The notes below the pieces were generated by a model, which was not told the DNA's origin, did not search any database, and saw only the letters and a program-made list of their open reading frames with translations. A program made the position numbers and the translations under genes. A stretch of 64,000 bases of DNA from Tetrahymena thermophila SB210 (lineage: Eukaryota > Ciliophora > Oligohymenophorea > Hymenostomatida > Tetrahymenidae). Location: assembly GCF_000189635.1 (NCBI RefSeq), contig NW_002476163.1:124001-188000 (forward strand), in the 5' to 3' direction. Within the stretch, counting starts at the first letter, position 1, and every line of letters starts with the position of its first letter. Below are positions 9,217 through 23,902 of this stretch, one piece after another.

Positions 9217-12200
9217 TCATTAGAAAATGAGTTTTGATCCTATTTTCTCCAAGCTTTATTGTAATTTTTCTAATTTTTATTTTCTCTTTTCTTATTCTTC
9301 TTATTTATTGGTTTTTGTATTCATAGCTTGTTGAGGTTAGAACTGCATAAATGACTTTATCTTATGTATTAATCTAGAAGGTTAATCCATACCTGTTACG
9401 TCTACTACAGGTAATTTCTTAATTTGAGAAGAAAAAGAAACTTTGCTGCTTGAATTTCCTAGAACATTGCTTTACTCTTTATCATTTTATATTTGAGAAT
9501 TTTGTCTTTGCTAATACTTTTAAGAAGGTTTTTATTGAGAATCACCATCAGATTTATCAGATTTGAGTAATTTTTTAAGTGAATTTTCACCTGTATCTTC
9601 TTCTTATTATTTAGTAGGAGTAAGTTTTCTTTTTTTAAGATACACTAATTATGACGATGACATCTAACTATCATCGCTATCATATTTATTATCCCTTTAA
9701 TTTACAATTTTATCTATACTTGGCTGTTTAACTCTGCTTTCATTTTTAATTGCTTATTGTACATTATTTTCTTATTATACTAAAGAAGCTAATGTACTTG
9801 CCTGAGATTCTTATTATTTTATTCTATCCATTAAATTCACTTAAACGTCTGAGAGTGAATTATTTGTTTCAGTTTTTTATTTTTCTTGAAGCTTCCTTAA
9901 CTATCTAGGGTCTTTCATATTTATTGATTTATTTTCATTGCTTTAAGCTTATAAAACCAATTTTTATTATTATGATTATTAATAATTTGATATATTATCC
10001 ATGCTATTTCCCCCATATTTTTCCTCATTTCTAATCATGCTGTTTGAATTACTTCTATTTACTAGTCCTCCATCTTAATCTTTGTAATTCTATCCAAACT
10101 AATATTACTAATTACCCTTATTTATTCCTTATTATTCAAGTATTGAGCTCAAGCTCTAAGTGCTACCTTGCTAATTTTCATGATTAGGAGTTTTTTTACC
10201 AGATACTTTTTTGCTTTCATTCATTTATTAAAGTATACCTATTGCTTACATTTACTTTTTGAATTAATCAGGGGCTTGCTGATTGTTATCCTATTCAGTT
10301 TCAAATAAATCATCTTATTATTAAAACTTTTTGTTTCCTTCGCTTTCAGGCTATATATAATCACTTATCTCATTCATTCTTTTATTCTAATAAAAAGGTT
10401 TAAATAAAAATTTTTTTTCTTTCTAAAAATATTCAAAACAATTCAAAATAGAATTTATAATAATGAAAAAAATTATCAAATTTTACTTAAGGATAATTAG
10501 AAGATGAGTTTACTTTTGATAACCCTGATTGTTGGGAAATATTTTATTGAGATCCTTATTACTGCTAATTTTGTTGTTAATAAGATTGACTAGAATTTTG
10601 TCTATTTTTGAAGTTAAATTATTAGTTATTGGCTTGATTTTAAGATATTTTTTGTCTATCATCTATATTAAATGGTGAAGGTGCAAAATTTTCGAACCCT
10701 CTAAGCTGACTAGAATTTTAGTTAGGGTTTGGTATGGGAATGCTTTGAGATGGAGATTATTAATTGAAGTTGTTGTTATTATTGATTTGATTATTCTACA
10801 TTTTATTACCTTCATAGCTTTGAGTAGTAATATTAGGAGGTGGAATATTAGTGTTTATATTATTTTGGTTCATTTTTATCGAATTCATTTAGATTTGTGG
10901 GATAGATATATTTTTAGGAACATTTAAAATACTTTGACTTTATTGTATCTTGGAGTTATTCATTTGATTTCCAAAGTTTTAAGACGATTGAGAACTTTAA
11001 ATTTATTATTAAGGTTGCTGCTATTAATTTTAAATAGGTGGAGGTGGTGGAGGGGGAGGTTAATATAATTTGGTTTATTAAGCAGTCATCTAAATAGGTA
11101 GATTGTTTTAACTTATTGATGGAAGATTTGGCGGTTGCAATTATTAAGGTCCTCCCTTTTTAATCATTGAAGTGTTGTTGTAATTTTAAAGTGAAGGATT
11201 TTGTTAAGAAGATTGGAAGAAATCTTATTAAGGTTGCAATGAGTTATTTGAATTTGATTGCTAGTCCTATATAGACTATGATGAGTATGTACCTTGTTGA
11301 ATACTCTAATTACTTCCATACAAATTTTACTTAATTCCCTAATTATTTCCTTACTAAATAATCTTATTTTGCTAATTAATTTAAGAAGAGCTATTGCTGA
11401 TAGAACTGCTCTAATTATTTGAGTTATTTGATATTTAGTTTATATTCATTTGGTACTGAGGCTATTAATTTGGTATAGGAGGATTATTTTGAGTAAGCTT
11501 ACTTTACGAGGCCTGATTACTCATGTATTGATTCTAATAAGGTATATTTGGAGGTTTTTATTACATAGGAGGAGGAACACTTTGCTAAGGAGGTTTGTTA
11601 TAGTTATTGTTTTACATAGGTGGAGGTTAACCATTATTTATATTAATTTAGTTATTTTCTCGACTATATTAGTTAAAGTTATTTTAATTTGAATTATTAT
11701 TCTAATTATTGTTATTGTAGATACTTTAATTATTATTATTATAGGGTGCTTAATAGTTGGTGTTGTAATTTTAATTGCTATTCATACTTTGTTATTGAGA
11801 GTTTGAAGGTAGAGGTACAGACATTTGCTAGCTTCCTTTATATTAAGAATTATTGCTATTATACATTTAGGGGTTAGGAGGTGGAGGTGGAGGTTACTGT
11901 TATTAATTTTGGTATTACTAGGTAGGATTTTGATAATCAAAATTCCCACTTTATTGTTGGAGAGGGAATCTAGAATTTGATGATTAAGATGATGAAGAAG
12001 AAGAAGATGGAGCTAAAGGAGGCCCTTGCTTATTTAAATTAACTACTTTCTATGATTAATAATTAGGTTAATTTTATTGAGAATGCTCGAATTGATTATT
12101 ATATTGAGGAGGTTTTATTTGCTATTTAAATTGATTAGTAGGAGGGTTATAGCCAGTAGGTGGAGGAGGAGGAGGTGGTTAATTTATGCCTCCTTACATT

Positions 12201-14290
12201 TATTTTTAAATACCACTGCCATAATAAGGATTCATGGGAGATGAATTATTGACTTATTGATTATTTGATGAAGGATAATTATTAAATGAATTATTTTACT
12301 TTTCATTTAAATTGTTGTTTGATGTACTTTTGAAATACTAATTTTAATTAAATTATTCCTAATATTCATCATTAAATCCCCTATCTCCAGCTTTTCTTTC
12401 GTTATCAGCTTAAGATTAAGACTAAGGAGGTTAATTATACATATTTCCTTTCTAATAAGGCTCATTATATGAGTTTAAATGAGAATTAATGTGGGGTGGT
12501 GGTGGAGGTGGAGGATTCCAAGAGTATTAGTTTTAACTTTAATTTGAATATTAATTATTATTATTATTATTATTATAATAAGGTTACTGCATTTTCCCTC
12601 TTTCCTAATTCTGATACTAAGGGCTCTGGATTTAGCCTGAACCATTACCACTCATTAATTAGCTAGGGATAAGCAAATTTTAATTCTTTTCTTAGTCAAT
12701 TTAAGTTTACTACTATCTCTTTTATTCTAAAAACTTTAAATATTTGTTGTTAAGTTTACCTACATTCCCTTAATTCTTAAATAGATCAGTAAAAAATTAA
12801 CTATTTTCATCAAAAAACTGAAACGCTGTTGAAATTTATAAATAAAAAAATAAATTTTAAATTTATTTATTCAACAAACATTAAAATAAGCTAAGAATAT
12901 TGTTTATAATTAATTCTTGAATAAGCTTTTTAGGCAAATAAGATGATAGATGTTGATGCTTGTTGAATAAGTCAGCAAACAAGTTATCCAAAAATATAAG
13001 AAACAAATCAGCACATATGTAATAAATAAATAAGTAAGTAAGTACCTTCTTGGTCAGTCTATAAAAATCTATATTCTTCGTGGCTGAATGGACACATTGT
13101 ATGCTTGTCACATTCTCTTGTAAAATAAAACTTGCATGGATAGTTTTCTAATTAATGGGAAAATTAGCAAGAATCACCCTTTTCACAAGAATTTCCAAGA
13201 AAGAACCTGCATATAGTCTTTTAGAAATAATTAAAATTATATTTAAAACTGAATTTAAGAGAATTAAAATATATCTGTTTGCCAAAAAATAATATAATTT
13301 ATGTAATTTGCTTTAATCTTTACAAAAATGTGCATCTAAAATTATTTTTATTTGCTCTATATTTCTTTTTAAAAATTGTTTAAATCTAATTACATTCTAT
13401 TTTTTGACTTCAAAGTCATGAGAAAATGTGCAATCTGCTCCCTTAGCGCATGATCCCTTTTTTAAAAATTCGCAAGGTACAGTCTTGTAATTTGATGAAT
13501 AAAATTATGGGGTTTCTTAATTGCCATTTTAGCTGTTTGAGGATCCATTCTTATTACTTTGCTTTTGTTAATAATTTTGTGTCTTAGAACTATTATTATT
13601 TTTTTTCTTTTTTTTCTCTGCGCTAGATTCCAAATGATTTTATGCTTATCTCTGCTAACTACTACTCTAATCAACTGTTTAGCTATCCTTCTTCTTTCCT
13701 TTTTTCTTCACTTTCCTAATTTAAATAATTATACAGGTTAAATGAATGCCATATACATTTTTTTAAAGCTATATCCTTCATTTGATTATCACTCACAAAC
13801 GAATTAATTGAATAAAAAATAAAAATATTCTTCTCCTATTTCTGATCAATTTTTGATAAAAAATATGAAATAAGGTATAACTTAAAGAGTTTATCTATGA
13901 AAAAATGTACTTGGGGACAGAGCTTTCTAGATCAGAAGAATGCCCAGCATCATCTTAGTCGCGTTTCTAAAATATTTCATATAAAACATATGTACTTTAA
14001 AGAAAGATAGGTAGGGAAAAGATTAAACGTAAAAAATAGTAGAAGACCATAAAATTTTGAAATAAGAGTTAGTAACAAAATAGGTTAAAAAGAAAGATAA
14101 ATTGGAAGAGAGAGTATGGAAGCGAAGTGAAGCCGTTCTTTACAATATTGATCGGTCACTTATAAAAATAGCTTATTAAGTCTTAACGACAAAAAATATT
14201 CTTGTTAACTGATTTAAAATCATATACAATATTGCTATTTAAAGGTTCTTAAAATGATATTTCTCCTTCTTCTAAATCTTAGCTAGACAT
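9217..14290 (-). CDS. Triple CCCH zinc-finger protein with long Pro/Asn/Gln-rich tail (ZC3H4/ZC3H6-like)
   Basis: Predicted RNA-binding protein. Phase-consistent exons: 14228-14290 (MSSQDLEEGEISFQEP...), 13911-13966, 13394-13715, 13046-13217, then 12825 down to TGA at 9217-9219; one more intron is likely near 10393-10490. A Lys/Asn/Ser-rich stretch precedes three tandem CX7CX5CX3H fingers: C121/C129/C135/H139, C150/C158/C164/H168 and C175/C183/C189/H193 (motifs PCEFLKKGSC, ICRFFLGNSC, PCKFYFTREC). Three closely packed fingers after an acidic 'DLEEGEI'-type N-terminus resemble the ZC3H4/ZC3H6/ZC3H8 family, which acts in noncoding transcription restriction and termination; that functional link is inference. 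About 1,100 residues follow, rich in Asn and Gln, with poly-proline blocks encoded at about 11039-11062, 11878-11893, 12160-12178 and 12492-12515, and an Asn tract near 12553-12580. The C-terminus is a charged helix (QEEQEKRKQKLEKLQQSLEK). Confidence 0.85.
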
Positions 14291-21238: not shown

Positions 21239-23902
21239 ATGGATTGCTCTAAATCAATAGAAGAGGATATCATTAGCTCTTCAAGCAGGGATAGCAGTAT
21301 TGATTATGAAGAATAAAATAATGTGGAGGCTTCTTTTGATTATAATAATGTTTATGAAGAGGATTATTCTGATGATGATTAGGATTATGAAGAGGAAGAA
21401 GAGGAAGAAGTATTATAATCGCCTTTTTAAGAAAAAAATGTAGAACAAAAGATAAATAAAAATTTTCAAAATACTCAAAGAAGCGAATTGACTTAAAATA
21501 TGTATAATTGCAATCGAGATTCTATTATTAAATTTTATTATTTCATAGTAAAACAGTTCTTTAAGAAGCTACAAATAATGAAAGCAAATTAGCAGATGAA
21601 AAAAAGAATTTGATGTATAGTTTGTTATTAAAAAAAAAAATATTTTAATTATTTAAATTTAATGTAGCAACTCTATAAACAAATTAAAAAAGCAGAATGA
21701 TTATACTACTCTTGATGTTTTATAACAATAAAACTAGAAAAAAGGAGTTAAAGATAATTTGAATAGGGAATAATAAGATTAAGATAGATTATAAACAAAT
21801 GAAAATGAGTGTTCATCATAAAATTAAAATATTAAAAGCCTGGCTTAATTAAATAATAGTATAATCATGTCTATTCCTAAAAGCTCATCTACTTAATTGG
21901 ATCTATAAAGCACAAAAGTCAGCAATAGTGATTTATTATAAAAGTGCTCACAGAACTCAATAAAAAATATTGTTTCTACTAATTCTTCAAAAAAAAAAAA
22001 TATTATAACATTCGAACTAAACAAAAACGAAAGCAAATTAACCTTGGATCTTTTAAAAAAAAAACAAGTTAAATCTTAAATAGGAGAATATCTAAATATA
22101 AAACAAGGAGAATCCTTTAGAGTATTACAAAGTCCGAGAGATGGTAAAAACCTCCCAAATATTGATAAAATAAAAGGTATCAATCTAAAAATACATAAAA
22201 ATTAATATTTTTTTTAACTTTGATCAGTAAATTAAATTTCTGATGTGTATTTATTTCAATATAAATTTTAGAATTAAATATTTATTTTTTTAAATATCTT
22301 AATAGCAAAATTTAATAAATTAAAATAAAAACCTCCAAAAATAACAAGTAGAAGCTGGATAATCCTAAATGGTAAAAATAAAAAGTTGGTAGCAGGTTAG
22401 AATGAAAATTAGGTTAGGGAGATAGCTTCTTTAACTAAAATGATGACTTGTTATATAGTAGTGCATTATATAAGAAAGCTGAATTTGATTCCAGAAAAAA
22501 CATATTTCAAAGTTTCAGCTCATGCTGCAAATTAACCAGGTAATAATGTTAGCAAATATTTTTTTCATTTAATATTTATTTTGAACTCATCTTATGTACA
22601 TTTATGAAAAATTAATATCAAATTCTATTTTTAATTTGAGATAATTGACAATTTTGTGTAATTTTAATCAGGTACCACTGCAGGATTAACTGAAGGAGAT
22701 GTAGTAAGCATAATGGATCTTCTCTATGGGATGATGCTTCCAAGTGGTAATGATGCTGCTTTTGTATTAGCTGAAAATTTTGGAGTTTATTTATATATGC
22801 AAACTGATAAATTTAAAGAGAAATATGGAAATGCTTAAACAAACAAAAAATTAAAAGTAATTAATTAGAAAGGAATAAATTTTATTTATAGAATATTTAA
22901 ATTAAACATTAACGGATGTGTCCAGTTAAAATTATTGAAAGTGAATTTTTACACTCCAAATTTAAATAAAAACAAAATACCTGATCTTCAAACAAATCAA
23001 TAAAATAAAAGTAAAAATATAATTTACCAGTAAAAATTTAAAATTAAAATTTGATTCAAGCAAAATAAAATTAAAAATTTTTGATTTTCGCAAATTTAAT
23101 TAAAACAAATAAATTAAGTAGGAATTATTTCCTGCATTATTTCTGGGATATATCCGTTAATAAATAATCACGAGTATCATTCAAGCTATTTTCTTTTTAA
23201 TTGCAAGAAATAGTTAGTGATGATTATTTTAAATCCTTTTTATATCTTAAAATAAAATTGAACAAAAATAATCTACTTTTGCTAAAATTAATATAATATG
23301 TGGTAGGATTTTTATTAGAATTTATTTTTTAAATTATTGTTTATTTTACCTTTAATGTAGTATTAATTACAAAAATCGAAAAGCTCACTTATTAAATATA
23401 AAAAATATGAGTATAGGTCAAGAATCCAATTACTTATTTTATCAAAGAAATGAATGATTTTGCAGAAAAATTAAATATGCAAGACACATATTTTACTAAC
23501 CCTCATGGTTTAATGCATAAAAAGAACAAATCTACTTCTTATGATGTTGGTCTGCTTTCCTATTATCTTATACATGATCCTTTGATAAAGTAGATAATGG
23601 CATAATAAACCTATAATGCAAATATAATGACCGAAACACTTTAACTTAAAAATCCACCTACAATATGGAAAAATACAAATAAAATGCTCAAAAAAACAGG
23701 ATTTTTGGGGCTAAAAACAGGAATTACACCTAGTGCTGGTCCATGCTTAGCAAGTTGGTATAATCATGAAAATATAAATTTAATAATTATCTTGTTAGGA
23801 GCAAAGAGTCTAGAAGAAAGATGGGTTGAAACTGTCCAGTTGTTAGAATGGGCAAAAAAGTAAATGTAATAAAAAAAAAAGGAAAAAAATGTAAATTCAT
23901 GA
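21239..23902 (+). CDS. Peptidase S11 (D-Ala-D-Ala carboxypeptidase / penicillin-binding protein-like) with disordered N-terminus
   Basis: Six phase-consistent exons (21239-21501, 21549-21614, 21668-22176, 22306-22539, 22672-22856, 23417-23902) give 580 residues. Residues 1-270 are acidic then Asn/Gln/Lys-rich, with no signal peptide. Residues 280-560 form an S11 serine peptidase domain with every catalytic motif: SLTK (Ser321/Lys324), SGN (Ser382-Asn384, in LLYGMMLPSGNDAA) and KTG (Lys519-Gly521, in GLKTGITPSAGPC), plus the family signature TNPHGL near 447-451. In bacteria this enzyme trims D-Ala from peptidoglycan stem peptides. Ciliates make no peptidoglycan, so a role on ingested bacteria or on another D-amino-acid or beta-lactam-like substrate is inference, and the missing signal peptide argues against simple secretion. 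Most likely an old bacterial gene acquired by transfer and since filled with introns. The 560-bp last intron carries an inverted-repeat element; the other four are 47-132 bp. Confidence 0.9.
22912..23157. mobile_element. MITE-like element inside the last intron of the S11 gene
   Basis: The left end acggatgtgtccag (22912-22925) and the right end ctgggatatatccgt (23143-23157) are imperfect inverted repeats of about 14-15 bp, flanked on both sides by TA (22910-22911 and 23158-23159). This is the target-site duplication expected for Tc1/mariner-type insertions. The 246-bp interior has no coding potential. It accounts for most of the extra length of this intron. No second copy was seen in the window, and the ends do not obviously match the nearby transposase relic. 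Confidence 0.55.

Follow-up and report, generated by a model that had tools for sequence, protein, structure and literature searches.

The genome of Tetrahymena thermophila probably encodes an anciently acquired and expanded family of active, non-secreted serine acyl-enzyme hydrolases of the S11 (PBP5/K15-type) class, acting on a substrate other than a cell wall. One member lies in the window, a stretch of 64,000 nucleotides (C327:124001-188000), and our searches of the genome (101.0 Mb in 445 contigs) recovered S11 matches at 12 places, one per contig, with the same 12 being found by the Pfam profile PF00768 and by the window domain as queries. The species is further indicated by the genome's cytochrome c1, of which a 188-residue stretch agrees at 188/188 positions with PDB chain 7tgh_3D, a Tetrahymena thermophila entry. 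All 12 domains could be modeled, with the model of L018 wanting the first 18 profile positions. Beyond the single gene described in an earlier sequence-only reading, there is apparently a 12-gene, mostly tailed and intracellular S11 family.

The window gene (L020 among the paralogs, whose coordinates become window coordinates on adding 17999) spans 21239-23902 of the forward strand. It is predicted to encode 580 residues in the ciliate code, with six exons and five introns in a single frame, an ATG at 21239 and a TGA ending at 23902; 27 TAA and 5 TAG codons are read as Gln and all five introns take the form GTA...AG. Its features are:

21239..21501, forward strand: exon 1, with the ATG and an acidic Ser/Asp/Glu-rich N-terminus; in-frame codon-usage signal; ab initio model agrees
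21502-21548, forward strand: intron 1, 47 bp
21549..21614, forward strand: exon 2, short and hydrophilic; weak coding signal; flanked on both sides by frame-consistent GT-AG introns (47 and 53 bp)
21615-21667, forward strand: intron 2, 53 bp
21668..22176, forward strand: exon 3, Q/N/S/K-rich tail, probably disordered going by composition alone; ab initio model agrees
22177-22305, forward strand: intron 3, 129 bp
22306..22539, forward strand: exon 4, where the tail gives way to the S11 domain (alignment begins at 22335); spliced alignment to paralogs
22428..22439, forward strand: SLTK (SxxK, with the nucleophile Ser and Lys), read by eye; Ser, Thr and Lys identical in 12/12 domains
22540-22671, forward strand: intron 4, 132 bp, phase 1; occurs at the same position in three other paralogs (alignment column 79; L013, L015, L016, L020)
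22672..22856, forward strand: exon 5, central part of the S11 domain; spliced alignment to paralogs
22743..22751, forward strand: SGN (second catalytic motif, within MLPSGND), read by eye; 12/12 domains
22857-23416, forward strand: intron 5, 560 bp, phase 0; low coding score inside
23417..23902, forward strand: exon 6, last part of the S11 domain, followed by a tail of 15 residues rich in Lys and Gln and by the TGA stop
23495..23512, forward strand: TNPHGL signature, read by eye; Gly-Leu in 12/12 domains
23714..23722, forward strand: KTG (third catalytic motif), read by eye; 12/12 domains

The three domain exons were recovered independently through spliced alignment to the paralogs with a purpose-written program, and a simple ab initio search returned identical upstream exons, save that exon 2 ended at 21623 rather than 21614, adding three residues. 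Codon usage, scored after training on the remaining 11 domains, tracks the exons as proposed, with a strong signal in exon 1 and the core and a weak one in exons 2 and 3; the drop of the score in the two domain introns is partly built in, since both of these were in its non-coding reference. The length of open frames is no evidence here, because, with TGA as the sole stop, AT-rich DNA such as this can by chance stay open for as many as 400 residues. The earlier proposal of a ciliate gene with five introns was thus reproduced down to its coordinates and six exons.

That the fold and active site of the window protein are of the S11 type is well supported by sequence comparison. PF00768 matches the 580-residue model with 154.3 bits (curated cut-off 27.6; E=5e-45), covering approximately its last 290 residues, and a Pfam scan of the protein (E 0.001) returned in addition just PF13354, below its cut-off. 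The SxxK, SxN and KTG motifs occur in this order in the window gene and in the other 11 domains; in domain numbering, S32, K35, S93, N95, K230, T231, G232 and R265 are identical in all 12 paralogs. An S11 domain with intact SLTK, SGN and KTG motifs and a TNPHGL signature had been claimed before, and both the domain and the motifs hold good, the catalytic residues being invariant throughout the family. A profile of the 12 domains matched 35 PDB sequences, including dacB (3mfd, 8.6e-46), a DD-transpeptidase (1es4, 1e-44), dacC and PBP5; the organisms behind the dacB, DD-transpeptidase and PBP5-type entries are presumably B. subtilis, Streptomyces K15 and E. coli.

The 12 domains have a mean pairwise identity of 0.383 (range 0.295-0.541), and the 41 invariant columns of their alignment include every catalytic residue. 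Hence, across the paralogs of this one genome, the sequence has drifted with the catalytic site held. The retention of the catalytic motifs in every copy argues for an active acyl-enzyme, and we infer that the window protein and its paralogs are likely to be enzymatically active. Two further positions bear on the chemistry. Arg265, C-terminal of KTG, is present in 12/12 ciliate, 36/36 Planctomycetota and 11/36 Bacillota rows, with a gap there in 21 Bacillota rows. From PBP5 structures, we take it to be part of the carboxylate pocket, a role for which our search of open-licence papers returned no support; this placement would favor carboxypeptidase chemistry. Domain position 167 is Asn in all 12 ciliate domains and His in 34/36 Planctomycetota and 34/36 Bacillota, with Asn in two Bacillota; this substitution may mark a changed specificity.

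Among the nearest known counterparts are the bacterial S11 enzymes without PBP5_C, such as that of Streptomyces K15 (which we take to be the enzyme of 1es4) and those of Planctomycetota (e.g., L028, L041). They share with the ciliate proteins the fold, all the catalytic motifs and the presence of little or nothing after the domain, and the Planctomycetota additionally share Arg265 and a Trp at domain position 8 (36/36, against 9/12 ciliate rows), a residue outside the four commonest letters there in Bacillota. Gly106, likewise common to ciliates and Planctomycetota, is found in 33/36 rows of the latter versus 10/36 of Bacillota. In contrast, bacterial S11 loci mostly present a hydrophobic stretch upstream (at most 73/80) and many of those from Planctomycetota display, by eye, an extra domain or repeat upstream, whereas the ciliate genes are distinguished by introns, low-complexity tails and the lack of a leader. 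As a separate observation on the Planctomycetota, the matched span in L021, L024, L025, L029, L031, L034-L037, L039, L043, L051, L052 and L059 runs to 403-637 residues, as would be expected if S11 were preceded by another, related enzyme domain; other frames from this phylum show a repeat resembling a peptidoglycan-binding domain (both by eye).

PBP5/DacA, DacC and DacD also share the S11 domain, with the NCBIfam DacD model matching at 2.8e-28 and 98.7 bits versus a cut-off of 610. They differ in that the ciliate genome yields no PBP5_C match, and the window protein has no leader and only a 15-residue hydrophilic tail after the domain. Going by its fold and motifs, the window protein is thus to be classed as S11, yet it appears to fail two defining features of an exported PBP5-type enzyme. 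A further parallel is offered by LACTB, which we take to belong to peptidase family S12. The mammalian protein is reported to be a mitochondrial, filament-forming PBP homolog (PMC9815587, PMC9454609). The sole resemblance is the reuse of a PBP-type serine enzyme in a eukaryote without peptidoglycan, the peptidase family and the compartment being different. PF00144 (beta-lactamase/S12) had no match in the window protein in the Pfam scan at E 0.001; elsewhere in the genome, it has matches on contigs C214, C72 and C110, which are possible LACTB relatives.

Upstream of the domain, the window protein carries an N-region of 287 residues that is K/N/S/Q-rich, 25% hydrophobic and of net charge -7, with the strong acidity confined to its first 80 residues (net -21). 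The 270-residue disordered acidic N-terminus of the sequence-only reading therefore stands as to acidity for the first 80 residues or so and falls for the N-region as a whole. No NCBIfam model matched this tail, nor did any Pfam model as part of the 580-residue protein. Comparable N/Q/S/K-rich stretches occur in the paralogs, most clearly before the domain in L010, L012, L013, L014, L015 and L019, and after it in L011 and L018, with L010 having both; the tails do not align with each other (best E 0.62). In the best, low-scoring model of L009, the start lies 12 residues ahead of the aligned domain. Beyond the domain, the N-termini were modeled ab initio with a simple scorer, and the models are trusted only next to the domain: for L011, L015, L018 and L019 at the least, the upstream part seems to enter other genes or noise, and the distal exons modeled for L012, L016 and L017 are likewise open to doubt. 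Such fast-changing low-complexity tails would probably place or regulate each paralog.

As a measure of a leader, we used a 12-residue window with a mean hydropathy of at least 2.0 in the N-region, a simpler gauge than a trained signal-peptide predictor. By this measure, 11/12 modeled S11 N-regions have no such stretch, a count that depends on the models; these include that of the window gene, in agreement with the earlier claim that it has no signal peptide. The sole model to pass, L011, does so with a leucine-rich stretch that looks spurious in a doubtful model. As a positive control, the starts of three GH25 lysozymes, picked by eye, all passed with values of 2.7-3.2; these loci (L156-L158, on contigs C187 and C17) lie at three places in the same genome and have clear hydrophobic leaders. 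Up to 73/80 bacterial S11 loci also passed, this being an upper bound as each of their frames was extended back to the preceding stop codon. Given the doubtful ab initio N-termini, some paralogs may have a leader exon that the models miss. On these models, an intracellular, non-secreted location of the S11 proteins is moderately supported.

We looked for four peptidoglycan pathway or enzyme families in the genome by exon-by-exon domain searches, which could miss a split domain. PBP5_C (PF07943), the PBP transpeptidase (PF00905) and alanine racemase (PF00842, C-domain) had no match in such searches, and the D-Ala ligase-type PF07478 had one weak match at 5.6e-4, just over the cut-off. The lack of secretion signals in the models, together with the lack of matches for three other peptidoglycan-linked domains, points to an intracellular, non-wall substrate as the most likely one.

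On the question of provenance, a scan of GTDB (prokaryotes only), which looked for two peptide patterns, placed Planctomycetota first among the best 80 of 565 relatives (best 2e-51), with the best Bacillota at 4e-39. In a tree with these 80 bacterial rows, the 12 ciliate domains form one clade of their own (100/99) and do not fall inside a clade of bacterial contaminants, the outcome for which such a tree had been suggested as a check. Ciliates and PVC-type rows are set apart from Bacillota at 87/97, in a tree whose bootstrap had not settled and in which many ciliate rows are odd in composition. The AU test kept both the grouping of ciliates with PVC-type rows (p 0.6; tree 4.78 above the free tree in score) and that with Bacillota (p 0.48), and the mean identities in the PVC-type versus Bacillota comparison are close (0.337 and 0.321). 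No nearer relative was found on plasmids (190 records, with about 31% identity in the best rows), and the viral relatives (52 loci, best 2e-20) are weaker than the bacterial ones. Taken together, the S11 family is of old bacterial origin, probably a single one, with both the PVC-type and the Bacillota placements passing the AU test. Separately, seven of the viral loci (L104, L107, L132, L133, L140, L148 and L151) are genes of S11 type carried by viral contigs 240-355 kb long; hence, large phages appear to carry DD-carboxypeptidase genes.

The introns speak to the age of the family. The phase 1 intron at column 79, which splits the Gly codon of a GT(S/T) motif, is present in four of the 12 genes (L013, L015, L016 and the window gene), drawn from three subclades; a second domain intron position exactly common to any of the 12 paralogs was not seen, and the domain of L014 is intronless. 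The simplest reading of the column 79 intron is a single old gain followed by losses. The best reading of the family is a bacterial origin, followed by intron gain and expansion at an early date, within the ciliate line or prior to it. Long residence after bacterial acquisition, as had been surmised from the window gene, accordingly gains from the 12 divergent domains in one clade and the intron position common to four of them. We reject bacterial contamination on account of the genetic code, the shared intron, the 12 copies in one clade and the neighboring genes. Contamination or recent transfer would account for a domain of bacterial type, but the in-frame TAA/TAG codons read as Gln and GT-AG introns of the window gene, the intron common to four paralogs, the 12 divergent copies in one clade and neighbors matching Ras and DEAD_2 leave it with a negligible probability. 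Of the 28 neighboring frames of at least 330 residues, 20 were scanned and seven of these matched a Pfam family, with CCCH zinc finger, MATE, DEAD_2, Ras and Pyr_redox exceeding their cut-offs and EamA and SRP19 falling short of theirs. Among the window's other frames is one of 1114 residues in the ciliate code (10433-13777, reverse strand), which contains 130 reassigned codons and a single zinc finger of the CCCH type.

Briefly, the fold and residues suggest the following mechanism. The SLTK serine would attack the C-terminal peptide bond with the lysine of the same motif as the base, whereas SGN and KTG would hold the substrate and its C-terminal carboxylate; hydrolysis of the acyl-enzyme would then release the last residue. 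As the substrate, we consider a peptide or small molecule inside the cell most likely, rather than a cell wall. As a more specific and tentative version, one to which we would give somewhat less than an even chance, these proteins could be intracellular serine carboxypeptidases trimming the C-termini of cellular proteins or peptides, with S11 having moved to the cytoplasm and diversified into 12 mostly tailed paralogs as a case of PBP reuse independent of LACTB.

Other functions are less probable. Tetrahymena is bacterivorous, its genome has GH25 lysozyme matches at three places, and the S11 catalytic residues are the same as in the bacterial enzymes; thus, the proteins might trim D-Ala from the stem peptides of food bacteria beside the lysozymes, reaching the food vacuole unconventionally or via a missed leader exon. 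Against this, no credible hydrophobic leader is seen in the 12 S11 models versus 3/3 GH25 loci, and the long low-complexity tails are unlike those of lysosomal enzymes, making such digestion, which had been entertained earlier, rather improbable. Cytosolic handling of peptidoglycan fragments or D-amino-acid peptides from ingested or symbiotic bacteria, be it detoxification, recovery or sensing, would fit both the conserved bacterial-type active site and the missing leaders; however, 12 copies that diverged long ago and differ in their tails seem a large number for a single salvage step, and we consider this, too, unlikely, if a little less so than digestion. That only the fold was kept, in a catalytically dead or structural protein, could be argued from the His to Asn change at position 167 in every ciliate domain, but the three motifs being kept in 12/12 domains despite the low overall identity makes this very unlikely. 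We therefore favor a family of active intracellular hydrolases.

Ciliate databases probably label such genes as D-alanyl-D-alanine carboxypeptidases. Our search of open-licence papers found no published study of a ciliate S11 protein; the genome paper of Ichthyophthirius reports 25 serine proteases in 10 families, and in the passages searched "S11" occurs thrice, as table or file names only (PMC3341644). If active, the Tetrahymena proteins would be enzymes that react with penicillin within a eukaryote for which peptidoglycan synthesis is not known. A tractable model organism would gain a new kind of intracellular hydrolase, with activity-based labeling offering a route to the substrate, and the family would exemplify how an enzyme of the bacterial cell wall can be domesticated and multiplied in a eukaryote.
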